The position numbers and the translations under genes are program-made. From assembly GCA_903832325.1 (NCBI GenBank), contig CAILBC010000043.1, positions 62,001 through 126,000 of the forward strand: a stretch of 64,000 bases of DNA. Reading direction: 5' to 3'. The first letter of the stretch is position 1. Every line of letters begins with the position of its first letter. Below the pieces are notes generated by a model. That model searched no databases, was not told the DNA's origin, and worked only from the letters and a program-made list of their open reading frames with translations. Below are positions 514-25,886 of this stretch, one piece after another. The DNA is from an uncultured Sphingomonadales bacterium (GTDB taxonomy: Bacteria > Pseudomonadota > Alphaproteobacteria > Sphingomonadales > Sphingomonadaceae).

Positions 514-536
514 CCGCCACGCCGGTCAGGCGGCGC
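503..536. terminator. Perfect palindrome between two convergent genes
   Basis: Thirteen bases (503-515) pair perfectly with 524-536 around an 8-base loop. Both stop codons lie inside the stem, and each protein's last two codons (Ala-Ala) form part of an arm. There is no U-tract on either side, so this is a candidate bidirectional terminator or mRNA 3' stabiliser rather than a textbook intrinsic terminator. Confidence 0.5.
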
Positions 537-1227
537 GGATGAACAGGTTGGCAGTCAGTCGTCCGTCGCGGGGATCGGAGGAAAGCTGCGTGTCCGGCGC
601 GATCACGCCCGAATGGAGCAGGCTGCCGGGATAGATGACCAGCCGGTCGGCATGGCCGGTCACCCCGCCGATCAGTTCGTAATGCGCGTTTGATCCGGCA
701 ATGTAGGACGGACCGGCGCGCGCCGCCTCACCGCGCGCCGCAGCGACATAGTGCGCCAGGTTCGCTTCGGTCACGCATTCGATGCCCGTGGCACGATGGC
801 GATAGAATGCGGTGCCCTCGGTTTCGCGCAAATAGTGCATCACTGCGAAATGGCGCGGATCGGTCGAATCGAAATGGGGGGACCGCTGCACCGGGGTCAG
901 CGTTTGCGCCGGGGCGGTGACCATTGAAAAGCTGGCCTCGATCAGGTCAAAGCTGTCGATGTCATAGGCGCCGGCGATGAATGGTGCGGCGGCTTCGAGC
1001 AGGCTTTCGGCATAGGCCATTGCCGGTTCGTGCGCGGCAATCACGCGGCGCAGCCCGGGATAGTGGTTGGTCGCGGGTGGCAGAGGCGCAAGCGCCGCCG
1101 CAAGTTCGACAACCGGTGTGCAATCGCCGCAGAACGCGTCGATTGTCACCACCGGTGTCTGGTCGCGCCCGATGCGGTGCAGCGCGGGGCGCATGGCGGC
1201 GTGGGGAAGCACGGATGGAGGGTTCAT
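526..1227 (-). CDS. DUF6445 family protein, putative Fe(II)/2-oxoglutarate oxygenase fold
   Basis: This 233-residue protein resembles the DUF6445 family of unknown function. It carries a candidate metal triad and cosubstrate arginine in the order seen in 2-oxoglutarate dioxygenases: H118-x-D120 in SPHFD, H205 in SLLHSG, and R223 in GRLTANLF. It shares NHYPGLR and TAFYRHRATG almost exactly with the second family member at 20479-21159. The start at 1227 is preferred because GGAAG lies 8 bases upstream; a GTG at 1245 is possible. It is the last gene of a minus-strand run (halogenase, TBDT, DUF6445), 55 bases after the TBDT. The substrate is unknown; oxygenase activity is inferred from motifs only. 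Confidence 0.7.
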   Translation of the reverse strand: MNPPSVLPHAAMRPALHRIGRDQTPVVTIDAFCGDCTPVVELAAALAPLPPATNHYPGLRRVIAAHEPAMAYAESLLEAAAPFIAGAYDIDSFDLIEASFSMVTAPAQTLTPVQRSPHFDSTDPRHFAVMHYLRETEGTAFYRHRATGIECVTEANLAHYVAAARGEAARAGPSYIAGSNAHYELIGGVTGHADRLVIYPGSLLHSGVIAPDTQLSSDPRDGRLTANLFIRAA

Positions 1228-1282
1228 GCTCCGCACTTCCGCCACGCCAGAGGGAACCGGTGGTGCCTGATGGTCAGGCCGG

Positions 1283-4279
1283 TCAGAACTTGTACTTCAC
1301 CCCGGCCTGGAACCGGCGTGCATTGCCACCCAGACCGTTTTCCACCAGCGAAGGCGCGTTGCCGGCCGAAGTGCTGCCCGCGCCCCATGCCGAATAGCTG
1401 CGGTTGAGCCAGTTGAACGCATTGTAGACCTGGAAATCGACTGTCAGTTCATGCCCTTGCGCAAACGGCATGGTGAAAGTCTTGGCGATGCGCAGATCGA
1501 CATCCTTGTACCCGATGAATGGCTTGGGCGAATAGACTCCGCTGAAATTGGCATAGCAGCAGGCGCCCGCCGGTGCGTTGCCAAAGATCACCGTGCCAAA
1601 CCGCGGCCCCGAATTGAGGTTCAGCGTGCCCGAAACCGTGAAGCCATAAGGCGCGCGGTAATTGGCGGTGGTGTTCCAGATCCAGTCGGGAACGCCCGCG
1701 ACAAAGCCATTGCCATAGGCGTTCTGGCTGCCGCCGTTGAAAAACTCGTCGGAATTGAAATCGGGCGCGGCATCGTTGGTGCGTGCGCGCTGGATAGTCA
1801 GCGCAGTGGTAAAGCCCCACTTTGAGGTGTGGGTAAAGGGCTTTTCCACCTGGACATAGAGCGCGGTCAGCCAGGCCTTGCCATTGCTCTGCCCCAGATC
1901 GAGCTTGCCGTTGAAGCCGGGCAACTGGCCGGCGGGCGGGAAGTTGTCCTCGATCCAGCCCAGACCCTGGCTGGTATAGCTGCCATCGGGCAGGCGGTTG
2001 CCGCGCACATACTGGAAGATGTTGTGCGACCGCACGTGGCTGAGCGTGACGGTGGTCTTGATTTCGCCCATCTGCTTGCGAAAGCCAAGGTCGAACTGGT
2101 CGGAAAACGGCAGTGGCGTCTTGTTGTTGAGCAGCCACACGCTGCCCGCTGCCGGGTTCGATGCCTGCACCGCCGCGCGCAGCGTGGCCGGATTGAGGTA
2201 GCTTGCCGACCACACCAGGCAGTTGGCGAGCGCGGCCGAACCGGTCGGGCAGCTGCTGCCCGGCGCGACGAAATTGACGCGCGCGTTGTTCGAAGCGTTG
2301 GTTTGCGATTCGATCACCGATTCGATGAACAGGCTGCGGTCGTAATAACGCCCCGCACCGCCAAAGATCACGAAATCGCGATCGCCCTTCACGTCATAGG
2401 CAAAGCCCAGGCGCGGCTGAAAATTGGCCCATTCCAGCTTGCGGTTGCTGCCGGTGGACACATAGTCGTGGTAATTGATCCCGGCCGCCGCCAGATTGGG
2501 GTAGTTCTGCAGCGCCGCGACGATGTTGGCCGGGGTGACATACTTGTTGTTATTGGGATTGGTTTCCAGATCCCAGCGCAGACCATAGTTGATGGTCCAA
2601 TGATCGTCGGGCTTGTATTCGTCCTGTGCATAGAGCCCGATCTGCGTGTCCTTGCCCTTGTAGGTTGGCGAGGCTTCGACATTGATGTCGGCGCCATAGG
2701 GGATCTGCACGGTGGGGTCGAAATTGGTGCCCGCACCCTGGTTCAGGTAATAGAACCGGCCATTGTCGGCATTGGTGACGTTGCGCGCCAGATCGAGGAG
2801 CACCACCTGGCCGCCCAGCTTCAGCTTGTGCGCGCCGCGCGTCAGGACGAAATCGTCCTTGAACGTCAGCGAAGTCTGCCGATCGCCCTGCACGAAGAAA
2901 TGCGCGCCGAGTTCGGCGTTGTTGTTGAACGAACGGTTGGCAGGATCAGCCAGGTTTCCCGAATTGACCACATTGCTGATGTTGTATTCCGGGCCGGTGC
3001 CGATCGTCGGCGTGCTTTGCGTGTCGATATCATAGGACACATAAAGGTTGTTGGTCGAAGTTGCGGTCGTGTGCTTCCAGCTGAGCTGATAGCGGGTTTC
3101 CTGCGTCTGGATGTTTCGCGCATGGGTTACGGCCGCGTTGGAATCGATATCGCCCAGATTGGTTTCCCGCCGGACATAGCCCTCCAGGTTCACCGTATCC
3201 TGCGGCGTGGCATAGAACGTCAGCTTGCCGAAATAGAGCCCCTGGTGGAAATTGTAGCTGTGCGCCACGCCGGTGATCTGGCTCACCACGTTGTCAGGGT
3301 ATCCGCCTGGCGTCGGGCTGAGCATGCTGGTGGCACCGGGCAGGTTTTCGGAAACCGCCTCGGCCGCGATATAGAATGTCAGCTTGTCCCGAATGATCGG
3401 GCCGCCGAGGTCCGCACCAAACTGCTTGCGGTTGTATTGCGCCTTTGGAACGTTGTTCAGCTTGTCGAAATAGGACCGTTCGATGAACGCCTTGGGCTGG
3501 AATTCGACAAATGCGCCGCCGTGGAAGGTGTTTCCCCCGGTCTTGGTGATCGAATTGATCACCGCGGTGCCGGCCTGCCCGGTTTCCGCGCCGAAGTTCT
3601 GCGTTTCAACCTTGTATTCCTGGATCGCGCTTTGCGGGAACGGGTTGCCGCCCTGGCCAAAGTTCTGGCCCAGCACGCCGCCGTGGTTGATTGCGTTCTT
3701 GAAGCTGACGCCGTCGATGAACACGTTGACGTTCGACGGGCTGAGCGCGCCGGCCTGAACTTGTGCCGCACCGGGGAAATTGGTGATCTGCAGGCCGGGC
3801 GCAAGCGTCGCAAAACTGAGGAAGTTGCGCGAATCCTGCGGCAGGTTTTCGATCTGGTCGGGGGTGATGCTCACCGCGACATCGGCGCTGCGCACTTCAA
3901 GCTTTGAACGGGTGCCACGGACCACGATCTGCTTGTCGCCCGGGGTGTCGAAATCGACAATCGAGGTGGAGCTGACCGACAGCGTGACATCCTGCGGCGC
4001 GCGATCGGCCACCGACACGCGATAGCTTGACGGGCGCAGGCCCAGAATCTGGTAATTGCCCTTGTCATCCACGGTGCCGACGGTCTTGTGACCGGTCACG
4101 GTGTCGATCGCGACAACTTGCGTGCCGGCGGCTACGCCGTTGACATGGCCCTGCAGCGCGGCATCGCCCTGATCGGCAAGGGCCGGCGTTGCCATCAACA
4201 GCGCGGTGGCCACCGCGAGCGTCGAAATCGCATGGCGATCAAGCCGATGGCCCGTCGCTGCCTTGATTGATTGTGTCAT
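1283..4279 (-). CDS. TonB-dependent receptor with N-terminal carboxypeptidase-regulatory-like domain
   Basis: This is an outer-membrane active transporter of 998 residues. A signal peptide ends near ATPALA. A transthyretin-like/carboxypeptidase-regulatory domain follows (about residues 40-110, with DDKGNYQILGLRPSSYRVSV), then a plug containing NVFIDGVSFKNAI and INSITKTGGNTFHGG, and a long beta-barrel ending GVKYKF with the C-terminal Phe expected of barrel proteins. This is the Oar-like layout. The ATG at 4279 fits AAGGG 9 bases upstream better than the in-frame GTG at 4288. Two AACCGGTT operators lie about 110-135 bases upstream. Neighbouring glycan hydrolase and halogenase genes suggest oligosaccharide import; the ligand is not identifiable from sequence. 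Confidence 0.9.
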   Translation of the reverse strand: MTQSIKAATGHRLDRHAISTLAVATALLMATPALADQGDAALQGHVNGVAAGTQVVAIDTVTGHKTVGTVDDKGNYQILGLRPSSYRVSVADRAPQDVTLSVSSTSIVDFDTPGDKQIVVRGTRSKLEVRSADVAVSITPDQIENLPQDSRNFLSFATLAPGLQITNFPGAAQVQAGALSPSNVNVFIDGVSFKNAINHGGVLGQNFGQGGNPFPQSAIQEYKVETQNFGAETGQAGTAVINSITKTGGNTFHGGAFVEFQPKAFIERSYFDKLNNVPKAQYNRKQFGADLGGPIIRDKLTFYIAAEAVSENLPGATSMLSPTPGGYPDNVVSQITGVAHSYNFHQGLYFGKLTFYATPQDTVNLEGYVRRETNLGDIDSNAAVTHARNIQTQETRYQLSWKHTTATSTNNLYVSYDIDTQSTPTIGTGPEYNISNVVNSGNLADPANRSFNNNAELGAHFFVQGDRQTSLTFKDDFVLTRGAHKLKLGGQVVLLDLARNVTNADNGRFYYLNQGAGTNFDPTVQIPYGADINVEASPTYKGKDTQIGLYAQDEYKPDDHWTINYGLRWDLETNPNNNKYVTPANIVAALQNYPNLAAAGINYHDYVSTGSNRKLEWANFQPRLGFAYDVKGDRDFVIFGGAGRYYDRSLFIESVIESQTNASNNARVNFVAPGSSCPTGSAALANCLVWSASYLNPATLRAAVQASNPAAGSVWLLNNKTPLPFSDQFDLGFRKQMGEIKTTVTLSHVRSHNIFQYVRGNRLPDGSYTSQGLGWIEDNFPPAGQLPGFNGKLDLGQSNGKAWLTALYVQVEKPFTHTSKWGFTTALTIQRARTNDAAPDFNSDEFFNGGSQNAYGNGFVAGVPDWIWNTTANYRAPYGFTVSGTLNLNSGPRFGTVIFGNAPAGACCYANFSGVYSPKPFIGYKDVDLRIAKTFTMPFAQGHELTVDFQVYNAFNWLNRSYSAWGAGSTSAGNAPSLVENGLGGNARRFQAGVKYKF

Positions 4280-4388
4280 CAGCCTCACCCTTTCGTGTTT
4301 TTTTTCGTTCTGTGCCGGTCGGTGCGAAAGGAATGGCGCATGGATTGCCCCCCACGCACAGATGTCCTTCGCCCGATCAGCCCCTGTA

Positions 4389-4422
4389 TGGAACCGGTTA
4401 CAGCATCACGTAACCGGTTACA
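4389..4422. promoter_or_regulatory. Tandem LacI-type operators upstream of the TonB receptor
   Basis: Two copies of an AACCGGTT-centred palindrome, at 4392-4399 and 4412-4419, have centres exactly 20 bp apart (about two helical turns). The second extends to GTAACCGGTTAC (4410-4421). A longer perfect copy sits before the adjacent halogenase gene at 6242-6257. Central-CG palindromes of this kind are typical LacI-family operators; the cognate regulator is not in the window. Confidence 0.65.
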
Positions 4423-4523
4423 ACCCCATTCTGTGCGCCTCTGCAATGGTGTTGCGAATTTGCCATAAGCCGTGTCGGCCCGGGTTTGTTCAGCCCCGCG
4501 CAAATGGGCAGTATCGTTTCAAC

Positions 4524-6164
4524 TCAGGTGGTTGGGCCGGCTGCCCGAACGTCCTGAAACCGCACCGTATGGCTGATCCCGCCAAATTGCATGGCCGGGC
4601 GCGGGGGCGCCACGGGGCGCGGGTCGACAATCCGGCGGATATAGTCGGCATGGCCCGGCATGCGGTTTGCGGTATCGTCGATCACGTCCTCGATATCGGC
4701 CAGGAATGCGCGCACTTCGTCATCGGGCAGCATGTCGACCATCGGATCGTATTGCATCGGCAGGCCCTGGCCGATCAGCACCTGCACCCAGCTTTCCTCG
4801 CGAAACAGTTCGGCCTTGTGATGCATGAAGAACCGGGCCGAGGCGCGGAACAGGTCGATCCGTTCGGCCAGGCTGTCGGGCACGTCCATGTGCTTCAGAT
4901 AAGCCCAGAACGGCGTGTCTTCGCGATCGGTCACTTTGTAGTGCGCGATGATGAAATCGCGGATGTCGGCATATTCGAAATCGGTCTGGCGGTTGTATTC
5001 GGCGATGTCGGCCGGATTGAAGGCGCGGCCGGGAAACAGCGCGATCAGGCGGAATATCGCGGTCTGGATCAGGTGGATGCTGGTCGATTCCAGCGGTTCG
5101 AGAAACCCCGAAGACAGCCCGATGGCAACAACGTTCCGGTCCCACGCGCGCTGGCGCTTGCCCGGGCGAAACCGCACCGGCATCGGGTCTTTCAGCGGCT
5201 TTCCATCCAGATTGCCCAGCAGCAGCCGCGCCGCATCGTCATCGCCGATCGCGTCGCCGGAATAGACCAGGCCGTTGCCGATGCGGTGCTGCAGCGGAAT
5301 GCGCCATTGCCAGCCGGCGCCATGCGCGGTTGATCGGGTATATGGGGTCAGCACCGGGGCATTTTCGCATGGCACCGCCAGCGCGCGGTCGCACAGCAGC
5401 CACCGGTTCCAGTCTTCATAGCCCACGCCCAGCGCATCGCCGATCAGCAGGCCGCGCATGCCCGAACAATCGATGAACAAGTCGCCACCGACCGTGCGTC
5501 CGTCGGCCAGCACGACCTGTTCGACAAATCCGGTCTCGCCATTGCGGACAACCGTGCCAATGCGCCCTTCGATCCGTTCCACCCCGCGCGCTTCCGACAG
5601 TTTGCGCAAGTGCGCGGCAAACAGCCCGGCATCGAAATGAAACGCATAATCGATATCGGCCAGGGGCGATCCCGGGGTGCGGCCATCGGGTTCGGCAAAG
5701 CGGTTCAACCGCGCCGCCACGCAATTGAGCGCATAGTGGTCAAAATGCCTGGCCTCGCCCATTTGCGCCAGCTTCAGCCAGAGCTGGTGGGTGTGCAGCC
5801 ACAAGTTGTCCTGCCCGATCTTGCCAAACCCGTGGATATAGCTGCTGCCGATATCGCGCCAATTGACGAATTCGATGCCCAGCTTGAACGTCGCCTTTGT
5901 CGCGCGGATCATCTCGGCGGTGTCGACGCCGGCCAGCGTGTTGTAAGTGCGGATTGCCGGGATGGTCGCTTCGCCCACCCCGATCGTGCCGATGTCATCG
6001 GATTCGACCAGGCGGATGGTATATCCGCGCGTGAACAATTTCGACAGCAGTGCCGCAGTCATCCACCCGGCCGTGCCGCCGCCGACAATGGTGATGGCGC
6101 TGATCGGCGGATTGTCAGCTTTGCTCATCTTTTCTGGCCCAATCATCTTTTCAGGCTCTTGCAT
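4524..6164 (-). CDS. Flavin-dependent tryptophan-halogenase-like protein
   Basis: This 546-residue member of the tryptophan halogenase family (PF04820) has the FAD-binding GGGTAGWMTAALL near residue 28, the family's conserved lysine (K94 in ATFKLGIEF, aligning by eye with the PrnA catalytic Lys), the halogenase signature GWQWRIP, and GFLEPLESTSIHLIQ. Such proteins oxidise chloride or bromide with FADH2 and O2, but relatives next to TonB receptors have no established substrate. The ATG at 6164 is chosen because AGAGGAG lies 6 bases upstream; an ATG at 6236 has no ribosome site and abuts the operator. It is upstream of, and codirectional with, the TBDT and DUF6445 genes. Confidence 0.85.
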   Translation of the reverse strand: MQEPEKMIGPEKMSKADNPPISAITIVGGGTAGWMTAALLSKLFTRGYTIRLVESDDIGTIGVGEATIPAIRTYNTLAGVDTAEMIRATKATFKLGIEFVNWRDIGSSYIHGFGKIGQDNLWLHTHQLWLKLAQMGEARHFDHYALNCVAARLNRFAEPDGRTPGSPLADIDYAFHFDAGLFAAHLRKLSEARGVERIEGRIGTVVRNGETGFVEQVVLADGRTVGGDLFIDCSGMRGLLIGDALGVGYEDWNRWLLCDRALAVPCENAPVLTPYTRSTAHGAGWQWRIPLQHRIGNGLVYSGDAIGDDDAARLLLGNLDGKPLKDPMPVRFRPGKRQRAWDRNVVAIGLSSGFLEPLESTSIHLIQTAIFRLIALFPGRAFNPADIAEYNRQTDFEYADIRDFIIAHYKVTDREDTPFWAYLKHMDVPDSLAERIDLFRASARFFMHHKAELFREESWVQVLIGQGLPMQYDPMVDMLPDDEVRAFLADIEDVIDDTANRMPGHADYIRRIVDPRPVAPPRPAMQFGGISHTVRFQDVRAAGPTT

Positions 6165-6241
6165 CACGGGCTCCTCTGGTCGGAAGGGGGGCAGGGCCGA
6201 TCCACGCACCGCAAATGTCCTCTCCGCCGTCTCCATCCGGC

Positions 6242-6257
6242 TTGTAACCGGTTACAA
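6242..6257. promoter_or_regulatory. Perfect 16-bp LacI-type operator before the halogenase gene
   Basis: TTGTAACCGGTTACAA is a perfect palindrome, 78 bases upstream of the preferred halogenase start. It shares its core with the pair at 4392 and 4412, so halogenase and TBDT probably belong to one regulon. The 319 bases from 6165 to 6483 hold no gene; besides this site they contain the heptamer repeat at 6451, and nothing else was recognised. Confidence 0.65.
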
Positions 6258-6450
6258 AATCAGAGGCATAAGCCCTGTGCCTCGATCGATCAATCGGATT
6301 TGCGCGGACGCACCCGCCCCGGGCCGCGTCCCGAAATTGTGCAAACGCGATGGAATCGCCCCTATACAGCCGTCCCGGAGCGATTTAGCGTCGGTGCGGC
6401 TGTGACTCATCGGATCGACGCGATCCGGCTCCTGCGCAGAACTGACGGGC

Positions 6451-6483
6451 CAGGGTGCAGGGTGCAGGGGGCAGGGGGCAGGG
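6451..6483 (+). repeat. Heptanucleotide tandem repeat at a translation start
   Basis: Four full 7-base units and one partial run head to tail: CAGGGTG twice, CAGGGGG twice, then CAGGG. The TTG start of the large surface protein follows directly. The AGGGGG inside the repeat can pair with the 16S anti-Shine-Dalgarno (one G-U wobble) at 5-base spacing. Copy-number change would not preserve frame or spacing. Confidence 0.75.
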
Positions 6484-9400
6484 TTGGCGACGATTTCATG
6501 GAATGCTGCGGGAAGCCCGGGCGATTGGGGTTTTGCGGCAAACTGGGTGAACAGCATAAAGCCCCGGCCGGCCGATACGGTCTCGCTGGCTGCGACCCGG
6601 CCGACCACGATCACCGTTGGCCCGTCCAACATCGTGACAGTGGCCGCGATTATCTCGGGTGCCGCCGGCAATGATACGATCACCATCGCCGGCGGCACTT
6701 TGTCGATCACCGGCGATGCGGCGATCGGCAGCGGGCTGACGATCACGTCCGGAACGCTCAACCTTGGTGCGACGACCAATCTGGTTGGCGGTCCCGGGGC
6801 GCTTGTCACCAACGCCGGGATGATTGCCAAGGCCGCCGACACCGGCACCGGCACCGCAACGGTATCGGTCGCCACTGTCAACACCGGCACGATCAGTGTC
6901 GGCGCGGGCAGCTTGCGCTTCACCGGTGCGGTCATCCAGAACGGCAATCTTGTCGCGGCCGATGGCGCCACGCTCGCACTCACCGTCGGGGGCACGCTTG
7001 GCGGCAGCGTCAGCGCGGTTGGCACGGGCCAGATCACCTTTGGCGGCGATTGGACGCTGGCGGTCACTTCGCTGAGCCTTACCGGAAACCTGGGCTTTAC
7101 CGGGTCGTTGTCCTTCACCAGCGGCCAGACCCTGACGCTGGCGGGTTCGACCATCCTTGGCACCACGCTCAAAGGCAGTGGCAAGCTGATCACGCTGGGC
7201 CCGGTGTCCGTCAACAGCGGGCTTGTGACCGGGGGTGCGGTCTGGTCGGCCAGCGCGGGCGTAACTTTCGCCAAAAACGCGGTGCTCTCGCTCAAGGCCG
7301 GGACCCTGGCGATCACCAATGCGGGCAGCGTGGCGCTGGATGACGGATCGGCGATCAGCTCGTTCGACGGCACCGATGCTTTGACCAATGCCGGTGCGAT
7401 CACCAAATCTGCCGGCACCGGCAACGCTGGTATCACGGCCAGCGTGACCAACACCGGATCGATCACCGCCACGTCCGGCCAGATCCAGCTCAATGGCACG
7501 CTTTCGAACAGCGGGACCCTGGCCGCGACCGGCGCCACGTTCGTCGCCACCGGCCCCGTGACCGAAACCGGCATGTTGACCGCGGGCAACGGTGGCTCGG
7601 TGCAACTGACGGGCGGTGGAACGCTCGGCGGCAGTATCAGCACCACCGGCACCGGCCAGATCGCGCTGCTGGGCGGTTGGACGCTCTCGCCCGGGACGCT
7701 GGCATGGAATGGCGCGGTTTCGCTGGGCGGCACGATCACCTTTGCCAGCGGACAAAGTTTCGCCCTTGGGGGAAGCACCAGCTTTTCGGGCGCGATCCAT
7801 GGCCCGGGAACGCTCACCACTTCGGGCCCGGTATCGGTGCAATCGGGCGGGGTCCAGTCCGGCGCGATCTGGTCCGACAGCGGCGCGATGACGTTTGCCG
7901 GCAACGCGAACCTTGTGCTCGATTCCGGCGCGCTGGCCATCGCGGCGGGCGGCAGCATCGCGCTGTCCGACGGATCGCAAGTCACCGCGCTTACCGGCAC
8001 CGAACACGTCGCAAATGCCGGATCGATCACAAAGACGAACGGCACCGGCAGCGCGCAGATCGGCGGCCTGATCACCAACACCGGCACGATCAGCGTTACC
8101 GCTGGCACGCTGACGATTGGCAGCACGGTCGCCAACAGCGGCACGATGCATGCAACCGGCGCGACGCTGGCTTTGGGCACGATCAGCGGCACCGGCGTGA
8201 TCGGCGCCAGCGCCGGGGGCACGATCGTGTTCAGGCGCGGCGGGCAACTGGGCTCGTTCATTACGGCCGACGATACCAGCCAGGTCGATCTGACCGGCGG
8301 CACGTTCACCTTTGCCGGACCCGGCCTGACCTGGGCATTCCAGACCGCGCTGGCCGGTCCGGCGGTGCTGACTCTGGCTGCCGGCCAGACGTTCACCCTT
8401 TCCCGGGTGACCACGATTTCCGGCGCTGATGTAGAAGGTATCGGGGCGGGCGGCGGCACGCTGGTTACCACCAACACGCTGACCGAGACCGGCGCGCAAG
8501 TGGGTGGCGGTGCCACCTGGCAGGTATCGGGCACGGTCAACCAGCACGATGGCGGTTTGCTGCTGGGCACCACTATCGCCGGGGCGACCGGCACCGTGGC
8601 AATTGTCGCCGGCGGGACGTTCAATCTTGCCGATGACAACGGCATCTCCGGGCTTGCTGCAACGCCCTCCGGGCCTCCCGGCGGTATCGTGTCCAACGCC
8701 GGCATGCTGGCCAAGACCGGCGGCGCCGGCACCAGCACGGTCAGCAGCGCGATCACCAACACCGGCACGATCGAAATCGACAGCGGCACGCTCGACATAT
8801 CCGGTCTGCTCACCACCACCGGCGCGATCAACATCGGTGCGGCAGGCATTCTGCAATTGACCGGTGGCGCCGCGCTGGGCGGCACGCTGGCCAACCACAG
8901 CACGCACCAGGTCGTGCTTGGCGGTGCGAACTTTACCGTTGGGCAAATCGGCGGAGTCTGGGCGGGGGTCGACCTGACGTCGGCACTGCAATTCACCGCG
9001 GGGCAGACTTTCACCTTTGCCGGAACCAGCACCCTGGCCGGCACGGTGACCGGCGCCGGCACGCTGACGCTTGCCGGTACAACGGCCATCGGCAGCGGCG
9101 CAGCCGTTACCTATGGCGCAACCCTGGCGATCAGCGGCAGCGCCAGCCTTGCCGGCACGACGCTGTGGCTGGACAACCGGTTCAGCGATCCGGCCGGCAA
9201 CGGCAATCTGTCGATTGTCAGCGGTGGCAGCCTGTCGCTGGTCGATGATCAGGCGCGCATCGGGTTCAGCACCGGCGATGCGGCGATCACCAACGCAGGG
9301 ACCCTGGCGAAGACCGGCGGGACCGGGGTCACGCAGATCCAGCAGGACCTGATCAACACCGGCACGATTGCGGCGACAGCCGGCACGATCAGCCTGTCGG

Positions 9401-13023: not shown

Positions 13024-13024
13024 T

Positions 13025-15135: not shown

Positions 15136-15235
15136 TGTCTCCGCCATCGCGCGGGGTCTGGTCCCGCATCCGGCCGCGACTATAGCGGCGCGGGCGCAGC
15201 GTGCAGCAATTTTCGGGCGTCTGGGTGAAGTGCGG

Positions 15236-16894
15236 TCAGGCGGCGCTTTCGCGGACCAGCACCGCGCCCCAGGCGGGCAGGTGCGCGGCATCGGCGCCGT
15301 TGATCGCCACGATTACATCGCCCGGGGACGCCTTGTGCAGTTGCAACGAGGCGCCGATGTTGAACGCGCAGGCGATGGTTTCGCCATCGGCCCGGCGGGT
15401 GAAAGTCAGCACGTCGCCGCGCGCCTCCACCGCCTCGATCGTGCCATGACGCAGCGCGGGGTGTTGCCGGCGCAGCGCGATCATCGCGCGGGTATGTGCC
15501 AGCAGCGCTACGGGATCGCCCTCCTGCACATTGACCGCGCGCGCGATATTCCCGGCGGACAGCGGCAGCCACGGATCACCGCTGGTAAACCCGCCGTGCG
15601 GCGCGCCGGCATCCCACGGCATTGGCGTGCGCACTCCGTCGCGGCTGAGCGTCAGCGGCCAGTTGGCAATCGCTTCGGGGTCTTTCAGCAGGTGAAACGG
15701 AATATCGTCCTGCAACAGGCCCAGTTCCTGCCCCTGATAAAGAAACACGTTGCCGCGCAGCGCGGTCAGCAGCGTGATCGTCATGCGGCCAAACGCCGGG
15801 CGCGCGGCCGCATCGGCCCAGCGCGACAGGCACCGCGGCGCATCGTGGTTTTCAAACGCCCAGCTGGGCCAGCCTTCATCACGGCCATCGGCATCCGGGG
15901 TGCCCGGCCAATCGCGCATCACGCTGGCAACAAGTTGCGCGCTCAATTTCGGCGCATAGAGAAAATCGAAGCCATAAGCGCTCGACAGGCGGTGGTTGCC
16001 CGCGGTGTAGGCCTTCATCAGCGGGATTGCGCCATCGCCGCCCACTTCGGCCACGCTGAACACCGCGCCATAGCCATCGCAGACCGCGCGGATGCGTTCG
16101 ACAAAGCCAACCACATCGGGATGGTTCTGGCTGAATGTCTTGAGCTGGAAATCATAGGGGCGGGTGCGCTGGCGGTTGTCGGTCGCCGGCGGATTGTCGG
16201 TCAGCGCCGGATCGAACATGCCGTGGTTCAGCGCGTCAAACCGGAACCCGTCGACCCCGCGATCAAGCCAGAACCGCACGACATCGAGCAGCGCATCCTG
16301 TACCGCGGGCAGATGGAGATTGAGCTGCGGCTGCTCTTTGAGAAACTGGTGGTAATAATATTGGCGGCGGCGCGCATCCCAGGTCCAGGCGGGGCCGCCA
16401 AACACCGATTGCCAGTTGTTGGGCGGGGTGCCGTCGGGCTTTGCATCGGCCCAGACATACCAATCGGCATGCGCGGCCTTGCGGCCCGAACGGCTGTCTC
16501 CAAACCAGGCGTGGCGATCGGACGTGTGCGCAAACACCAGATCGATCGTGACTTTCAGCCCCAGATCGTGCGCGCGCGCGATCAGCGCATCAAAATCGGC
16601 CAGCGTGCCAAAGGTGGGATCGACATCGCGGTAATCCGCCACGTCATAGCCGTAATCGGCCATCGGGCTGGTGAAAAACGGCGAAATCCACACCGCATCC
16701 ACACCCAGCCGCGCCACGTGATCAAGATGCGCGGTGATCCCCGGCAGATCGCCGATCCCGTCGCCATTGCTGTCGGCAAAGCTGCGCGGATAGATCTGGT
16801 AGATCGTCGCGCCGCGCCACCATTCGTGGCCGGCGGCCGCTGCGGGGCGTTCGCACGGTGCCGGTTCGACCATAATCGGGTTCGCCTTGGTCAT
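15236..16894 (-). CDS. Alpha-glucosidase, GH13
   Basis: This 552-residue GH13 enzyme has no signal peptide, so it is probably cytoplasmic. It opens with WWRGATIYQIYPRSFADSNG, typical of alpha-glucosidase/oligo-1,6-glucosidase. The catalytic residues are visible: nucleophile D220 (GFRFDALNH), acid/base E283 (FSVAEVGG) and D351 (FENHDAPR). FAHTSDRHAWF is in the expected place. It would release glucose from malto-oligosaccharides taken up by the cell. The start at 16894 is set by a four-base ATGA overlap with the upstream alpha-amylase gene. Together they form an operon under the ATACGTAT site at 18841. Confidence 0.9.
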   Translation of the reverse strand: MTKANPIMVEPAPCERPAAAAGHEWWRGATIYQIYPRSFADSNGDGIGDLPGITAHLDHVARLGVDAVWISPFFTSPMADYGYDVADYRDVDPTFGTLADFDALIARAHDLGLKVTIDLVFAHTSDRHAWFGDSRSGRKAAHADWYVWADAKPDGTPPNNWQSVFGGPAWTWDARRRQYYYHQFLKEQPQLNLHLPAVQDALLDVVRFWLDRGVDGFRFDALNHGMFDPALTDNPPATDNRQRTRPYDFQLKTFSQNHPDVVGFVERIRAVCDGYGAVFSVAEVGGDGAIPLMKAYTAGNHRLSSAYGFDFLYAPKLSAQLVASVMRDWPGTPDADGRDEGWPSWAFENHDAPRCLSRWADAAARPAFGRMTITLLTALRGNVFLYQGQELGLLQDDIPFHLLKDPEAIANWPLTLSRDGVRTPMPWDAGAPHGGFTSGDPWLPLSAGNIARAVNVQEGDPVALLAHTRAMIALRRQHPALRHGTIEAVEARGDVLTFTRRADGETIACAFNIGASLQLHKASPGDVIVAINGADAAHLPAWGAVLVRESAA

Positions 16895-18783
16895 TTCCGG
16901 GCCTCGCAAATCCCATAGCCCAGCGCGGGCAGGTCCAGATGCACAGTGCCCGGCGCGCTGGCAAGCCCGGGGCAGGTGCCGGCCAGCGCATGCAACTGCG
17001 TGGTGGCACTATCGACTTCCACATTGACCGACAGCGGAGTCTGCGCGGTATTGAACGCAACCAGGACTTCATGACCATCATCCGGGTCAATCCGTGAAAT
17101 GGCGAAGAGCCCCGGCATTGCCGATCGGGCGCGCACGATCTGCCGCCCGCGGCGCAGCGCCGGGGTGGCGCTGCGCACCCGCGCCAGATCGGCAATGGTG
17201 CGGAACAGCGGATGATCGGTGCCGAAATGCGCGGTGGCGGTGGTTTCGGCGCTGCCGATCAGCCGCTCGGCATTGTAGCTCGGCACGCGCGATCCGAACT
17301 GGTCTTCGCGCGCGGCCTGGTCATCGCCGGTGGAGGGAAAACCCTGTTCATCTCCGGCATAGATCGATGGCACCCCGCGCAACGTCATCAGCATTGCATG
17401 CGCGAGCGTGACCCGCGCCAGCACCTCGTCATCGCCGGCCTGGGGCAGCGCCTTGCGCACGAACCAGCCGATCCGGCCGTTGTCGTGGTTTGAAACGAAC
17501 GTCACCTGCTGGCGGGCCGCATCTTCGCCGCCGGCATAGAGCGGATCGATCATGAACAGATTGTCCAGCTTGTCGGTGCCGGTCTTGCCGCTGACCGCGT
17601 CGATCACGGCAAACCGGAAACCGAAATCGATTGTCGCCGGGTAATCGGCAACATGGGTAAACCGCGCCTGGTATTGCGCATTGTCGGCGCCGCCGCCCAC
17701 TTCGCCGAAAATCGCGAAATGGGGCAGGCCTTCGGCGCGGGCAACGCGCTGGATCGCCGGGATGAACGCGCGCCAGAATGCCGGATCGACGTGCTTTGCC
17801 GTATCCACGCGAAACCCGTCAACGTGATAGCGGCGCACCCAGTCGGCATAGATGTCGATCATGCCACGCACCACGCGCGGGTGCTCGGTCATCACATCGT
17901 CCAGCCCGCCGAAGTCACCCATTGTCGAATCTTCGCCGGTGAACGTCGTGTTGCCGCGGTTGTGGTAATAGATCGGATTGTTGAGCCAATCGGGCACTTT
18001 CAGATGCGCGTCGGCAGGATCGACCACCGGGGTATAGGCATAATCGGGGCGGGTGAGGTGGGCAAAATTGGCCTCTGTCGCCACGCCATCGCCGGCAAAC
18101 CCGGGATTGATGGGGTCGCCCGCCACGCCGCCATGCCGCTGATAGGGATAATCGGCGCGCGATCGATAGGGGCAGGTCGTTGCCGGGCATTCTGCATAAT
18201 GGATCACGTCGGCGGTGTGGTTGATGACGATGTCCATATAGATTTTCAGCCCGCGCGCGTGGGCGGCGGATACCAGCCGGGCAAAATCGGCATTGCTGCC
18301 GAAATGCGGATCAACCTGGGTGAAATCGGTGATCCAGTATCCGTGGTATCCCGCCGATTCCCTGCCCGGGGCGCCCTGCACGGCGCGGTTTTTCATCACC
18401 GGGGCCACCCAGATCGCGGTTGCGCCCAGCGCCTTGATGTAATCGAGCCGGCGGATGATCCCGGCAAAATCGCCGCCGTGGTAAAACGCGCGGTCGGTCG
18501 GATCATAGCCGGTGTGCAGCCGGTCGCCGATCAGGCCGCCCATATCGTTCGCCGGATCGCCATTGTCGAACCGGTCGGGCAGCAGGAAATAGACCACTTC
18601 ATCTTCGGCCGGGCGCGCCGCCACGGCATCTGCCGCAGGCGCAGGCGCCGCAAATGCCGGCCAGTCGGAAAGGCCCAGCGCCATCGCGCAGATCGCCGCC
18701 GCGACCTGCATGGCGCCCCTGGCGGAACGACCGCCACGCCGCCGGACGGTCCCGGCGACGTGCCCCGATGCTTGTTTCGGCAC
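16891..18783 (-). CDS. Secreted alpha-amylase, GH13
   Basis: This 630-residue GH13 hydrolase has an N-terminal export signal: a basic stretch (RRRGGRSARG), a hydrophobic run around AAAICAMALG, and a cleavage-like AFA. The catalytic domain begins near VVYFLLPDRFDNGDP. Catalytic motifs are GFRVDTAKHVD (nucleophile), FAIFGEVGGG (acid/base) and FVSNHDNGR. It would break alpha-glucans to oligosaccharides in the periplasm or outside the cell. A GTG start at 18783 is preferred, with GGGAG 6 bases upstream; longer in-frame starts would cross the operator. The alpha-glucosidase gene follows with an ATGA overlap. Confidence 0.9.
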   Translation of the reverse strand: MPKQASGHVAGTVRRRGGRSARGAMQVAAAICAMALGLSDWPAFAAPAPAADAVAARPAEDEVVYFLLPDRFDNGDPANDMGGLIGDRLHTGYDPTDRAFYHGGDFAGIIRRLDYIKALGATAIWVAPVMKNRAVQGAPGRESAGYHGYWITDFTQVDPHFGSNADFARLVSAAHARGLKIYMDIVINHTADVIHYAECPATTCPYRSRADYPYQRHGGVAGDPINPGFAGDGVATEANFAHLTRPDYAYTPVVDPADAHLKVPDWLNNPIYYHNRGNTTFTGEDSTMGDFGGLDDVMTEHPRVVRGMIDIYADWVRRYHVDGFRVDTAKHVDPAFWRAFIPAIQRVARAEGLPHFAIFGEVGGGADNAQYQARFTHVADYPATIDFGFRFAVIDAVSGKTGTDKLDNLFMIDPLYAGGEDAARQQVTFVSNHDNGRIGWFVRKALPQAGDDEVLARVTLAHAMLMTLRGVPSIYAGDEQGFPSTGDDQAAREDQFGSRVPSYNAERLIGSAETTATAHFGTDHPLFRTIADLARVRSATPALRRGRQIVRARSAMPGLFAISRIDPDDGHEVLVAFNTAQTPLSVNVEVDSATTQLHALAGTCPGLASAPGTVHLDLPALGYGICEARK

Positions 18784-18840
18784 GATATCTCCCTTTGCTT
18801 TTGCCCCTTGTGCCACCGGCTTGGCCGATCGGGCACAAGA

Positions 18841-18848
18841 ATACGTAT
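18841..18848. promoter_or_regulatory. Probable LacI operator between amylase and halogenase genes
   Basis: ATACGTAT is a perfect 8-bp palindrome in the 145-bp divergent intergenic region, 58 bases before the amylase GTG and 81 before the halogenase ATG. The same core occurs inside a 14-bp perfect palindrome between the TBDT and lacI-like genes (25873-25886) and, with one mismatch, upstream of the MFS gene (27091). Confidence 0.6.
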
Positions 18849-18928
18849 ACCCGTGTGACGGGCCTGCCGCCTGCTGCCTGCCGCGCCGATTGCCATTGCA
18901 GCATGACCACACTAGCGTGCAAAAAATC

Positions 18929-20467
18929 ATGCAAACCAACGTTGATAGCCCCCGTCATCCCGATGCTTTGCGATCGATCGTGATCGTCGGCGGCGGATCG
19001 GCCGGATGGATGACCGCAGCCGCGCTCGCCAATGCCCTGGCCAGTTCGTCAGGGTGCAGCATTCCGGTCACGCTGGTTGAATCCGATGCGATCGGCACGG
19101 TCGGCGTGGGTGAGGCAACGATTCCCCCGATCAAGGCGTTCAATGCGCGGCTGGGCATCGATGAGGCCGATTTTGTGCGCGCCACGCGCGGCAGTTTCAA
19201 GCTGGGCATCGAATTCGTCGGCTGGGGCGCCGCAGACACGCGCTATTTTCACCCATTCGGATCGTATGGCGCAGATTTTGACCGTGTGGCGCTGCACCAC
19301 TGGTGGCTGCGCGAACATGCCGCAGGCAACCCCGTGCCGTTCGATGACTATTCGATGTGCTGGGCACTGGCGCGCGAAAACCGGTTTGGCCCGCCGGTGG
19401 ACAATGCCCGCGATGTGCGATCCACCCATGCCTATGCCTATCATTTCGATGCCGGGCTCTATGCCGCGACGTTGCGGAACTATGCCGAAGCGCGCGGCGT
19501 GCAGCGGGTGGAGGGCCGCATCGCGCATGTTGGCCGCGATGGCGAAACCGGGCACCTGACCCATGTCACGATGGATGACGGGCGCACGGTGGCGGGCGAT
19601 TTCTTTGTGGATTGTTCGGGTTTTGCCGGGCTGCTGATCGAACGCACGCTGGATGCGGGGTTTGAAAGCTGGGCGCACTGGCTGCCCTGCGACAGCGCGG
19701 TGGCGATGCCCACTGCGAATGCCGCACCGATCACGCCCTATACCCGTTCCACCGCGCATGCTGCGGGCTGGCAATGGCGCATTCCGCTGCAGCATCGGCA
19801 GGGCAATGGCCATGTCTATTGCTCCGCCGCGATCAGCGATGACGAAGCGGTGGCGGTGCTGCGCGCCCATGTGGAAAGCGCGGCGATCGCCGATCCGCGC
19901 GTGATCCGCTTTACCGCCGGGCGCCGCCGCAAATCATGGGTGGGCAATTGCGTGGCGATCGGCCTTGCCTCCGGGTTTCTGGAACCGCTGGAATCGACCA
20001 GCCTGCATCTGATCCAGACCGCGGTCGAACGGCTGCTGCTGGTGCTGCCCGATCGCAATCACGATCCGCTCAATGCCGAGGAATTCAACCGCGCCACCGC
20101 GGCCGAATATGAACGCATCCGCGATTTCATCATCCTGCACTATCACGCCAATACCCGGCCCGAACCGTTCTGGCAGCAATGCGCCGCAACGCCGGTGCCC
20201 GATGAGCTGGCCTACAAATTGCGTCACTGGATGGGTTCCGGCCGGCTGGTTGCACCGCAGGACGAATTGTTCCGCAATCCAAGCTGGCTGGCAGTCTATA
20301 TCGGGCAGGGGCTGGTGCCCGATCGGTGGGACGCGATGGCCGATGCGCGCGCCGGCGTGGTCGATGCCCCGGCGCAATTGGGCAAACTGCGCAACCTGAT
20401 GCGCGCGGCGGCGGCAACGTTCCCCACGCACGATCAGGTGCTGGCGCGGCTGGCCCCGGCATCCTGA
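18929..20467 (+). CDS. Flavin-dependent tryptophan-halogenase-like protein
   Basis: This 512-residue homologue of the 4524-6164 protein has GGGSAGWMTAAAL for FAD, conserved K91 in SFKLGIEFVGW, GWQWRIPLQH and GFLEPLESTSLHLIQ. The ATG at 18929 places the FAD motif near residue 21, as in the family. No strong ribosome site is visible; the longer frame reaching back to 18710 overlaps the divergent amylase gene and is not believed. The DUF6445 gene begins 11 bases after its stop, so the pair is probably cotranscribed from the operator-bearing promoter shared with amylase. The physiological substrate is unknown; the gene's place in a starch locus argues against simple secondary-metabolite halogenation. 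Confidence 0.85.
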   Translation: MQTNVDSPRHPDALRSIVIVGGGSAGWMTAAALANALASSSGCSIPVTLVESDAIGTVGVGEATIPPIKAFNARLGIDEADFVRATRGSFKLGIEFVGWGAADTRYFHPFGSYGADFDRVALHHWWLREHAAGNPVPFDDYSMCWALARENRFGPPVDNARDVRSTHAYAYHFDAGLYAATLRNYAEARGVQRVEGRIAHVGRDGETGHLTHVTMDDGRTVAGDFFVDCSGFAGLLIERTLDAGFESWAHWLPCDSAVAMPTANAAPITPYTRSTAHAAGWQWRIPLQHRQGNGHVYCSAAISDDEAVAVLRAHVESAAIADPRVIRFTAGRRRKSWVGNCVAIGLASGFLEPLESTSLHLIQTAVERLLLVLPDRNHDPLNAEEFNRATAAEYERIRDFIILHYHANTRPEPFWQQCAATPVPDELAYKLRHWMGSGRLVAPQDELFRNPSWLAVYIGQGLVPDRWDAMADARAGVVDAPAQLGKLRNLMRAAAATFPTHDQVLARLAPAS

Positions 20468-20478
20468 CCGCAGCCACC

Positions 20479-21159
20479 ATGGAGCCCGCCTGCCGCATCG
20501 AACTGATCGGCGCCGAACGGCAGCCGGTGATCGTGATCGACGGGTTCGTGCCCGATCCGGCGGCGCTGCGCGCGCGGGCAGAGGCGCTGGCCTATCGCCC
20601 GATGGGGCCGCATTATCCGGGGCTGCGTGCCGAAGTGGCGCGCGATGATGTGGCCGCGTTTTTGGTGCCGGTGCTGGATCTGATCACCGAAACCTTTGGC
20701 CTGCGCGGTGTGCCGGGGGTGATTTCGGCCGGCTATTCGATTGTTACCACGCCGCCATCGGCGCTCACCCCGATCCAGCGCATTCCGCATATCGACGGGC
20801 TGGAGCCGGAACGGATTGCGCTGCTGCATTTCCTGTCGCGAGCAGACCAGGGCGGCACCGCGTTCTATCGCCATCGCAGCACCGGGTTTGAAACCATCGA
20901 TGCGGCGCGGCACCCGGTCTATGATGCCGCGCTGCACCGCGATGTTGCGCAGCATGGCCTGCCCGCTCCGGACTATATCGGCGGTGACACGCCGATCTAT
21001 GAACGCATCGCCCGGTTTGATGCCGTGCCCAATCGCGCGCTGATCTATCGCAGCCACGCGCTCCATTGCGCCGATCTGCCACCCGATCTGGACCTGACGC
21101 CCGATCCGCGCGTGGCACGGTTGACAGTGAACACGTTCCTGATGGGCCCGCGCGTGTAA
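20479..21159 (+). CDS. DUF6445 family protein, putative Fe(II)/2-oxoglutarate oxygenase fold
   Basis: This 226-residue protein is a paralogue of the one at 526-1227. It retains PHYPGLR, H104-x-D106 (RIPHIDG), GTAFYRHRSTG, H196 (SHALHC) and R214 (ARLTVNTF), the spacing expected of an iron/2-oxoglutarate oxygenase. It lies 11 bases after the halogenase gene and converges on another halogenase gene with a single base between stop codons. Its repeated location beside halogenase-like and TBDT genes suggests a joint function, possibly modification of a shared protein or peptide target. That function is inference. Confidence 0.7.
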   Translation: MEPACRIELIGAERQPVIVIDGFVPDPAALRARAEALAYRPMGPHYPGLRAEVARDDVAAFLVPVLDLITETFGLRGVPGVISAGYSIVTTPPSALTPIQRIPHIDGLEPERIALLHFLSRADQGGTAFYRHRSTGFETIDAARHPVYDAALHRDVAQHGLPAPDYIGGDTPIYERIARFDAVPNRALIYRSHALHCADLPPDLDLTPDPRVARLTVNTFLMGPRV

Positions 21160-21160
21160 A

Positions 21161-22663
21161 TCAGGCGGCGCAATGCCGGGCGATATAGGCGGCATGGTCG
21201 GGCATGGCCGAAACCTGACGCTGGATCACTTGCCGCATCAGCGCGAGCAGTTCTCGCACTTCGCCCGGTTCGCGCGCATCGGCCAGGGGGTGATACCCCT
21301 GCGGCATCAGCCCCTGGCCAACCATGACCTGCAACCAGCCGACTTCGGCAAAGAGTTCTTCGTTGAACCGGGTAATGCGGCCGTTTGCACGAAACAGGTC
21401 CAGCTTTTCGGTCAGGCTGTCGGGCACGGGCATCGCGGCGCATTCGCGCCAGAACGGTTCGTCGCGTGCATTGAGGTGATAGTGCAGGATGATGAAATCG
21501 CGCACGCGTTCCCATTCGAACACGGTTTCAGCGTTATAGGCGGCGCGGTCCGCGGGCTGGATCGGGCCCTGCGGCAAATAGCGGATCACCCGCTCCACTG
21601 CCGACTGCACCAGATGGATGCTGGTCGATTCAAGCGGCTCCAGAAAGCCGGCAGCAAGCCCCAGCGCGACGACATTGTGATTCCAGAATGCGCGCCGGCG
21701 CCCGGTGGCAAAGCGGATCGGGCGCGGATCAGCCAGTGCCTTGCCATCCAGATTGTCGAGCAGCACGCGCGCCGCTTCGTCATCGCTGGTGTATGCAGAG
21801 CAATAGACATGGCCATTGCCGGTGCGATGCTGCAACGGAATGCGCCATTGCCAGCCGGCACCCTGCGCGGTGGATCGGGTATAAGGCGTTAACGGCGTGG
21901 CCGAGGCGCAGGGCACCGCGAGCGCGCGATCGCAGGGCAGCCAATGCGTCCAGTCTTCGTATCCGGTGCCCAGCGCGCCCTCGATCAGCAGCCCGCGAAA
22001 CCCCGAACAGTCGATGAACACGTCGCCCGCGATCACCTGCCCGTCGGCCAGCGTCACGCTGCGCACATCGCCGCTTTCACCATCGCGTTCCACCGAAACG
22101 ATGCGCCCTTCCACCCGGTTTACCCCGCGCGGTTCGGCCCAGCTGCGCAAATGGCGCGAAAACAGCGATGCATCGAAGTGAAAGGCATAGGGCAGATCGG
22201 TGCCGCCGGCCGCCGGTTTGTCAAACCGGTTGGTCCAGCCGGCCTGGGCATTGGGGGCATAGGCATCGAGCGGCGCGGTTTCGCCCAGATGCTGCCCGCG
22301 CAGCCAGAAATGGTGAAACGCGATTGGCCCGGTGGCGCGTCCGACACCACCGAATGCATGCATGTAGCGGCTGTCGGCACGGCCCCAGCCGGCAAATTCG
22401 ATGCCGAGTTTATAAGTCGCCCCGGTGGCGCGCATGAATGCCGCTTCGTCCAGCCCGAGCGCCGCGTTGAGCAGGCGGATCTGCGGAATGGTTGCTTCGC
22501 CCACCCCGACAATGCCGATTTCATCGGATTCGATCAGCGTGATGGCATGGCGCTGCGCCGGCAGAAACCGCGCCAGCGATGCCGCGGCGATCCACCCGGC
22601 GGTGCCGCCACCCACGATCACGATTTTCTGGGGCACAATTTTCTGGGGCTGAATTTCGGTCAT
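21161..22663 (-). CDS. Flavin-dependent tryptophan-halogenase-like protein
   Basis: This 500-residue member is the third of its family in the window. It has GGGTAGWIAAASL for FAD, K85 in TYKLGIEFAGW, GWQWRIPLQHR and GFLEPLESTSIHLVQ. The start at 22663 fits the family N-terminus; a start at 22699 would add 12 residues. It is downstream of and codirectional with the TBDT at 22839-25733, separated by 175 bases that hold two hairpins, so its expression may be lower than or separate from the receptor's. The substrate is unknown. Confidence 0.85.
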   Translation of the reverse strand: MTEIQPQKIVPQKIVIVGGGTAGWIAAASLARFLPAQRHAITLIESDEIGIVGVGEATIPQIRLLNAALGLDEAAFMRATGATYKLGIEFAGWGRADSRYMHAFGGVGRATGPIAFHHFWLRGQHLGETAPLDAYAPNAQAGWTNRFDKPAAGGTDLPYAFHFDASLFSRHLRSWAEPRGVNRVEGRIVSVERDGESGDVRSVTLADGQVIAGDVFIDCSGFRGLLIEGALGTGYEDWTHWLPCDRALAVPCASATPLTPYTRSTAQGAGWQWRIPLQHRTGNGHVYCSAYTSDDEAARVLLDNLDGKALADPRPIRFATGRRRAFWNHNVVALGLAAGFLEPLESTSIHLVQSAVERVIRYLPQGPIQPADRAAYNAETVFEWERVRDFIILHYHLNARDEPFWRECAAMPVPDSLTEKLDLFRANGRITRFNEELFAEVGWLQVMVGQGLMPQGYHPLADAREPGEVRELLALMRQVIQRQVSAMPDHAAYIARHCAA

Positions 22664-22765
22664 GCCTATACCGGATACCAGACGGCCGCAGACTGGCAAA
22701 GCCAGACCACGGCCGAACGGGTCGAGGGAACCTGTGTTTTAGCGCCGCACCTTGCCAACTTCACC

Positions 22766-25733: not shown

Positions 25734-25872
25734 GTCACCCTCCCTGCCGGTGCGCTTGGCGCATCTCGGTGATAGAACCCGACGCGACCTTCGCAGCCCC
25801 CCTGGGATGCGCACCTGCCGCGTTACCGTGGCTGCGCTTTTGCGCCGGACAGGCCCTGCTGGTAAAGAATGC

Positions 25873-25886
25873 GACATACGTATGTC
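25873..25886. promoter_or_regulatory. Perfect LacI operator palindrome between the TBDT and LacI-type genes
   Basis: GACATACGTATGTC is a perfect 14-bp palindrome with central CG, 140 bases before the receptor start and 153 before the regulator start. It is the strongest of three related sites (others at 18841 and 27089). The 305 bases between the two genes show no other recognisable feature. Confidence 0.7.

Follow-up and report, generated by a model that had tools for sequence, protein, structure and literature searches.

The DNA analysed here (G000:C43:62001-126000; "the window" means this whole stretch of 64,000 nucleotides) comes from a host genome of 4.57 Mb and carries two sets of genes, recognised by profile searches, which each combine a TonB-dependent receptor, one or two flavin-dependent halogenase-like proteins (FDHs; PF04820) and a DUF6445 protein (PF20043). 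The association of FDH, DUF6445 and receptor is real and broad, and it is more than chance. As judged from a predicted structure, DUF6445 is very probably an Fe(II)/2-oxoglutarate (2OG) oxygenase with a double-stranded beta-helix fold. Our favoured explanation, held tentatively and with less than even confidence, is that the FDH and the Fe/2OG oxygenase modify the co-encoded TonB receptor before export. The genes of the two sets are:

526..1245, minus strand: DUF6445 copy 1, predicted Fe(II)/2OG oxygenase (PF20043, 3e-60)
874-876, 868-870, 613-615 and 559-561, minus strand: codons of H, D, H and R, respectively, of DUF6445 copy 1
1283..4288, minus strand: receptor A, Oar-like TonB receptor (OMP_b-brl_4, PF25183, 7.7e-48; weak CarboxypepD_reg)
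4524..6236, minus strand: FDH1, flavin-dependent halogenase-like, placed in the BrvH/Xcc4156 group (PF04820, 610.9 bits; Lys118, Glu383)
18929..20467, plus strand: FDH2, flavin-dependent halogenase-like (PF04820, 615.7 bits, G000:C43:80977-82350; Lys91, Glu355)
20479..21159, plus strand: DUF6445 copy 2, predicted Fe(II)/2OG oxygenase (PF20043, 3.2e-67; H104, D106, H196, R214)
21161..22699, minus strand: FDH3, flavin-dependent halogenase-like (PF04820, 620.9 bits; Lys97, Glu357)
22839..25997, minus strand: receptor B, TIGR01782 TonB receptor (PF07715; TIGR01782 506 bits, cut-off 310)

Locus A (526-6236) lies entirely on the minus strand in the order FDH1, Oar-like PF25183 receptor and DUF6445 copy 1, an order which was also found in two Sphingomonas genomes (L057 and L058). 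Receptor A had no NCBIfam match and is thus not a TIGR01782 receptor (>310 bits). Locus B consists of FDH2 and DUF6445 copy 2 on the plus strand, followed by FDH3 and the TIGR01782 receptor on the minus strand, FDH3 being convergent with the first two genes and downstream of receptor B. The ATG at 18929 was picked by us as the start of FDH2, and the true start of receptor B probably lies inside its open frame (MMKRYQS...). Intergenic gaps inside the modules were 37, 235, 11, 1 and 139 bp, the 11 bp being those between FDH2 and DUF6445 copy 2. An earlier note, made from the sequence alone, had described two such loci between 526 and 22663; both were confirmed, with the second receptor (22839-25997) falling beyond that range. 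The whole genome contains two PF20043 genes, both in the window, and eight PF04820 genes, seven of them on the window's contig; all eight FDHs sit in loci holding a receptor. The window copies have diverged, with identities of 48-54% between the FDHs and 37% between the DUF6445 proteins, and receptors A and B showed no mutual match at E<=1e-3. A recent tandem duplication of the two sets is ruled out by the divergence of the copies.

Conservation was surveyed with the best 80 of 478 DUF6445 relatives in the named genome collection, a sample biased toward the query. Within 10 kb, an FDH was present in 58 of these loci, a receptor in 58, both in 53 and neither in 17. When the 80 loci were collapsed at 70% identity, an FDH was found in 35 of 49 clusters and both genes in 31; at 60% identity the numbers were 19 and 15 of 29 clusters. 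LacI was present in 36 of the 80 loci, a major facilitator superfamily (MFS) transporter in 20 and SapC in 3, the last figure being an undercount from a search with one seed. In an even draw of 398 genomes of the phylum, strong DUF6445 matches (>190 bits) outside the host genome numbered 31; an FDH occurred within about 9 kb of 25 of them, a receptor near 24 and both near 21. One of the 25 FDHs is partial, at the edge of its locus (L294), and those without an FDH are L271, L274, L281, L288, L292 and L293. The co-occurrence which the earlier note proposed to check is therefore conserved across genera and families. PF20043 itself was found in 30 of these 398 genomes and in 9 of 59 genomes of the host genus, the latter marking DUF6445 as a patchy accessory.

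From the side of the FDHs, full-length PF04820 matches (>140 bits) were present in 15 genomes, host included, of a second even draw of 150, and the 34 FDH neighbourhoods considered are those covering the listed full-length matches of the other 14 genomes. A TonB receptor was recognised in 29 of the 34, mostly immediately adjacent (gap of <=303 bp in 20 of the 29). For comparison, 40 FDH-less regions around TIGR01782 receptors were taken from nine of the same genomes; they hold 43 of the 78 receptors over the TIGR01782 cut-off, three more FDH-less ones having been left out. SapC, Cupin_8 or DUF6445 was located <=5 kb from the receptor in 16 of 29 FDH-linked cases and in 1 of 40 FDH-less ones (p 4.6e-7). 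Fe/2OG-type enzymes alone, with no 5 kb limit, were found in 16 of 34 FDH loci versus 1 of 40 FDH-less regions; since the FDH set had longer flanks, the 5 kb count is the fair comparison. Five loci (L186, L272, L282, L287, L291) display the order receptor, FDH, SapC, Cupin_8, FDH, DUF6445, and the window loci look like reduced versions of it. The module was found on three receptor types, namely TIGR01782, PF25183 and a PF00593/PF07715 type, and the receptor is the commonest protein shared among the FDH/oxygenase loci. The suggestion of the earlier note that both oxidative enzymes share a role in TonB-linked nutrient uptake is well supported.

In 54 aligned DUF6445 sequences, window copies included, His104, Asp106, His196 and Arg214 were invariant. 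Ten sequences were left out of this alignment (L032, L043, L046, L048, L050, L052, L054, L055, L080, L107; only L050 was reported faulty), and 25 more of the 80 loci, many of them near-copies, lie outside it. A residue count over 123 collected frames, which spans all 80 loci, found HxD, H and R kept in 122, the exception being a 177-residue frame without the second half. The HxD...H...R residues which the earlier note had pointed out are thus present in both window copies and in nearly all collected frames. The AlphaFold model of copy 2 had a mean pLDDT (predicted local distance difference test) of 96.6; its top Foldseek match was HygX (E 1.2e-5) and its top match in the VIA comparison was OGFOD1 (Z 13.9, root-mean-square deviation 3.0, 174 aligned), with SnoN, AsqJ, HygX, lysyl hydroxylases, P4H and PHD2 at Z 12-13. 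At the level of prediction, the fold expected in the earlier note was borne out, with high model confidence and with the metal residues kept, and DUF6445 gains a likely enzyme class. VIA rows less than 1 Z unit apart were treated as tied, and the fold therefore does not choose between a protein and a small-molecule substrate. No match below E 0.4 was obtained for DUF6445 among the sequences of solved structures, and no relative was confirmed in viral contigs.

Seven of the 11 weak DUF6445 matches were examined (L295-L301); none had an FDH nearby and one had a receptor, while the metal residues were kept in all seven. Two or more functional groups may thus exist within PF20043.

All three window FDHs scored 451-539 bits against Xcc4156 (PDB 6y1w), BrvH (6frl) and 9luq, versus less than 300 bits against tryptophan halogenases. 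The best matches of FDH1 were 6y1w (539 bits), 6frl (490) and 9luq (487), with the next at 279; FDH2 matched 6frl best (482 bits; next group 294), and FDH3 9luq (524), 6y1w (507) and 6frl (460), followed by 281. Sequence comparison thus places the three in the BrvH/Xcc4156 group. They possess GxGxxG, WxWxIP and the catalytic Lys and Glu, as expected of PF04820 members, and among the FDH frames from the collected loci that are 430-850 residues long, 132 of 137 kept both catalytic residues. No evident signal peptide was read by eye on the module enzymes, for which reason a cytoplasmic step on an unfolded precursor would be the simplest picture. PMC5945002 and PMC7336383 report that the native substrate of these FDHs is not known. 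According to the former, BrvH brominates free indole weakly and does not brominate tryptophan, and its authors doubt that indole is the natural substrate; the latter describes an open active site of Xcc4156, possibly for peptides, and proposes a peptide substrate for the group by analogy with MibH.

Five divergent FDH paralogues were without both catalytic Lys and Glu (L164:4993-6477, L168:9043-10527, L172:7480-9210, L181:10037-11530, L107:888-2420). Each of them shares its locus with intact FDHs, and they are possibly regulatory or heteromeric partners.

Sister modules contain other partner proteins. The Cupin_8 protein of L018 is related in sequence to FIH (1.4e-19) and JMJD5/7, which we take to be protein hydroxylases; HxD...H was kept in all 34 collected Cupin_8 frames. 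A third type of partner (L019:9604-11073, L180:9599-11863) has a 2OG-FeII_Oxy_5 domain and weak matches to tetratricopeptide repeat (TPR) proteins. It is situated between two FDHs of the host genome, occurs also in L039, L040 and L180, and in L019 and L180 adjoins an FDH and a TonB receptor. By their sequence relationships, the Cupin_8 and TPR-2OG partners would point to a protein substrate. SapC (PF07277) is recurrent as well (L018:5113-5832 and 13 relatives). Its structure model was confident (pLDDT 94) but matched no solved structure in Foldseek at E <=0.001 or, among 1000 chains, in VIA at Z >=2, so that it gave no clue to function; its alignment contained no conserved HxD motif. In 11 FDH loci with a receptor and no known accessory, no further Fe/2OG family appeared among the 25 of 42 families listed (50 of 105 open reading frames, ORFs). 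The neighbours of some FDH-less DUF6445 genes gave no common clue (amidase, DUF4397, DUF1214/DUF1254 by a TonB_C protein, LigT, DUF2853).

A gene beside the TonB receptor of some FDH-DUF6445 loci (L064:10660-12747, with counterparts in 14 similar loci) encodes a protein of about 690 residues whose start resembles a signal peptide and which belongs to no Pfam family; FecR and extracytoplasmic function (ECF) sigma genes are present in some of these loci.

We suggest that each locus could be a sugar-uptake locus with a built-in oxidative module for protein modification. The cytoplasmic FDH of the BrvH/Xcc4156 group would act on the co-encoded TonB receptor while this is an unfolded precursor, and the DUF6445 oxygenase, likewise cytoplasmic, would act on the same precursor; this part would be played in sister modules by a Cupin_8 related to FIH or by a TPR-2OG protein, often together with SapC. 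Particular side chains would be halogenated or hydroxylated before Sec export, with a loop Trp for the FDH, and the modification could tune glycan binding, stability or resistance to attack. We infer the receptor as substrate, a substrate common to both enzymes, the timing before export and the benefit. Where the earlier note had left the choice between oxidative modification of a receptor, a peptide or a glycan, the receptor or another protein is now favoured and the glycan disfavoured, due to the varied glycoside hydrolase (GH) neighbours; substrate and chemistry are to be read as conditional throughout. The BrvH/Xcc4156 group was solved and assayed without a natural substrate, and the gene pattern would name the neighbouring receptor and even a residue. 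If true, this would add a new type to the modifications of outer-membrane proteins, with a bearing on sugar uptake in many bacteria.

In a more specific form, which we consider rather doubtful, the TonB-dependent sugar receptors of Proteobacteria would receive a dedicated maturation, the FDH acting on a loop Trp (Trp539, clade A), the Fe/2OG enzyme on a second residue, and the modified side chains being displayed at the surface. The candidate residue was found from a receptor tree of 117 receptors, 70 of them FDH-linked and 47 not; three scored as FDH-less, L048 (17453), L098 and L103, are in loci that may end before an FDH. Linkage to FDHs clusters on this tree, with 11 changes versus a shuffled mean of 37.1, a contrast which is inflated by near-copies. 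The residue in the window is:

24381..24383, minus strand: Trp539 codon of receptor B (LTDPQGWGQTGF; numbering from the long open frame), candidate acceptor, in 45/45 of linked clade A

Trp539 is present in all 45 linked receptors of the window receptor's clade (clade A), within an otherwise variable loop that is probably extracellular; no other Trp reaches 85% conservation in the linked rows of that clade. All 27 FDH-less orthologues from a single family (f28), L230 and L238 among them, are without it. The clade A rows conserve 96 columns in at least 43 of 45; six of these are lost in the 27 orthologues, namely Trp539 and the Gly after it, both deleted in every one of them, and four others which are Ser or Gly. 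None of the 27 had an FDH within 10 kb on its own contig, but for six of them (L302, L308, L310, L315, L320, L323) a contig end lies nearer than 10 kb. Of the f28 receptors of a more distant kind (about 47% identity), the three covered by the comparison all retain the Trp, and their contigs carry an FDH at distances of about 7, 8 and 19 kb. In L177 two receptors flank an FDH pair, one with the Trp and the other without it, the latter grouping with the FDH-less L250.

A number of observations weigh against a modified receptor, or against Trp539 as the site. No modified receptor has been seen. Neither an FDH nor a receptor accompanies 17 of the 80 DUF6445 genes; 5 of the 34 FDH loci are without a recognised receptor (L166, L176, L188, L196, L197) and 18 of 34 without a recognised Fe/2OG partner. 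The fit of the DUF6445 model to small-molecule oxygenases (HygX, AsqJ, SnoN) is about as good as that to protein hydroxylases. As read from the sequences, the Trp539 contrast is a single evolutionary event, i.e., one loss, and the residue may simply bind ligand. No Trp column was conserved across all linked receptors. A Trp in the Trp539 column is present in only 4 of the 25 linked receptors outside clade A, but in 18 of all 47 unlinked receptors, 16 of the 18 falling outside the clade A part of the tree; it is also present in L338 and L339, from genomes without an FDH near these receptors. In clade C, none of the Trp conserved among linked rows gave a consistent contrast with the unlinked sisters. 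Clade B has two conserved Trp, but the FDH-less rows closest to it (L232 twice, L256) retain both, and only more distant rows are without them. The Trp content of linked receptors is slightly below that of unlinked ones (1.16 vs 1.37%, p 0.018). Co-variation of distances over 17 common loci (FDH, DUF6445, receptor, two GH13, LacI) was not decisive; all were correlated, and the highest partial correlation of the FDH was with the receptor (0.39), that of the receptor with a GH13 (0.62) and that of DUF6445 with LacI (0.61).

Other explanations of the gene association have to be weighed. The enzymes might make or tailor a small aromatic molecule, for example a bromoindole-like signal or ligand, which is exported or imported via the TonB receptor. 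TonB receptors commonly import small ligands, and the fit of the DUF6445 model to natural-product oxygenases (HygX, SnoN, AsqJ) is compatible with this, as is the bromination of free indole rather than tryptophan by BrvH. That activity is low, however, and its natural role is doubted in the accessible text of PMC5945002; the genes that recur nearby are those of sugar enzymes, LacI and MFS, and no nonribosomal peptide synthetase or polyketide synthase type was found among the 25 of 42 families listed (50 unlabelled ORFs, 11 FDH loci), so that we regard a small-molecule product as unlikely. The sugar context itself could suggest that an incoming glycan or its aromatic decoration is modified, as the genes often lie among LacI, MFS and glycoside hydrolase genes in carbohydrate loci. 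Yet the glycosidase type varies from one FDH locus to another (GH13, GH97, GH3, GH30, GH32 or glycoamylase), which leaves the receptor as the more constant factor. FDHs, moreover, act on electron-rich aromatic rings, and modification of a glycan appears the least probable of the readings considered.

The substrate could instead be a ribosomally made peptide, or a protein of the locus other than the receptor, such as SapC, LacI or an unannotated short precursor. This would agree with the protein-hydroxylase relatives of the DUF6445 fold and of Cupin_8, and with the peptide proposal by MibH analogy cited above (PMC7336383). Against it, the window gaps of 1-235 bp leave little room for a precursor gene (as judged from gap lengths only, short ORFs being uncompared), and SapC and LacI are found in just 3 (undercounted) and 36 of the 80 DUF6445 loci; we hold it to be very unlikely. 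Finally, the association may be passive, in that sugar loci gather unrelated oxidative genes or the FDHs are oxidases without a dedicated substrate. The FDH loci lacking a partner oxygenase or a receptor, the five FDH paralogues which lost both catalytic residues, and the patchy occurrence of DUF6445 (9/59 genus and 30/398 phylum genomes) would fit this; the strength and breadth of the association, the clustering of FDH linkage on the receptor tree, and the retention of both catalytic residues in 132 of 137 FDHs speak against it and make it quite unlikely.

Modification of the receptor, as favoured here, can be compared with known systems. BrvH and Xcc4156 (PDB 6frl, 6y1w; also 9luq) are closest to all three window FDHs and share the catalytic residues; the accessible text of the papers on them makes no mention of TonB receptors or of an Fe/2OG partner. 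QhpG, described in the accessible text of PMC7876137, is an FAD (flavin adenine dinucleotide) enzyme which resembles FDHs in structure and dihydroxylates Trp inside a protein during maturation of quinohemoprotein amine dehydrogenase. A flavoprotein oxidising Trp within a protein is the mode that we propose for the window FDHs; FDH2 and FDH3, however, reached only 35.9 and 31.7 bits against NF049967 (cut-off 240), and these two are not members. QhpG works with a radical-SAM enzyme. Among protein hydroxylases, FIH, JMJD5 and JMJD7 are sequence relatives of the sister-module Cupin_8, and OGFOD1 and P4H are fold matches of the DUF6445 model; at the sequence level, DUF6445 itself matched no solved structure below E 0.4. 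The TonB-linked carbohydrate utilisation loci of proteobacteria, known as CUT or PUL, share the receptor, LacI, MFS, GH13 and other carbohydrate-active enzymes, and the loci described here add an FDH plus an Fe/2OG oxygenase and SapC. MibH (PDB 5uao) is an FDH acting on a peptide, as cited in the accessible text of PMC7336383; the window FDHs scored 192-221 bits against it, far under their scores with BrvH/Xcc4156, and no precursor peptide was found, short ORFs being uncompared.

No account of a module of receptor, FDH and Fe/2OG/SapC was found in the open-access literature, subscription papers being mostly outside this search; nor did it yield anything on DUF6445, or on tryptophan halogenase with TonB-dependent receptor and either SapC or cupin. 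The accessible text of PMC11337851, PMC4911050 (whose SapC is a clay) and PMC7333567 does not describe the module, and the main text of an FDH survey (PMC8269204) contains none of the terms TonB, outer membrane, carbohydrate, gene neighborhood, genomic context or orphan.

The two loci are flanked by further genes of sugar metabolism:

1..513, plus strand: glycoamylase-like gene, C-terminal part, context of locus A (starts in L013 at 19044)
15236..18939, minus strand: two GH13 alpha-glucan enzymes adjoining locus B (PF00128, 4.6e-113 and 8.9e-58)
26039-27067, plus strand: LacI regulator, sugar-locus context of locus B
27146-28705, plus strand: MFS transporter, sugar-locus context of locus B

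Locus B is thus flanked by the two GH13 enzymes, LacI and the MFS transporter. For locus A, the frame at 1-513 extends into the window from L013, where it starts close to LacI and GH3, and it clusters with L058:1093-2520, a PF10091 glycoamylase-like gene.

Between the loci, a repetitive open frame of 2179 residues without a Pfam match (6484-13023, plus strand) is perhaps surface adhesin-like; it is followed at 13025-15291 by a gene pair for an M20 peptidase and an arginine-deiminase/DDAH-like protein.

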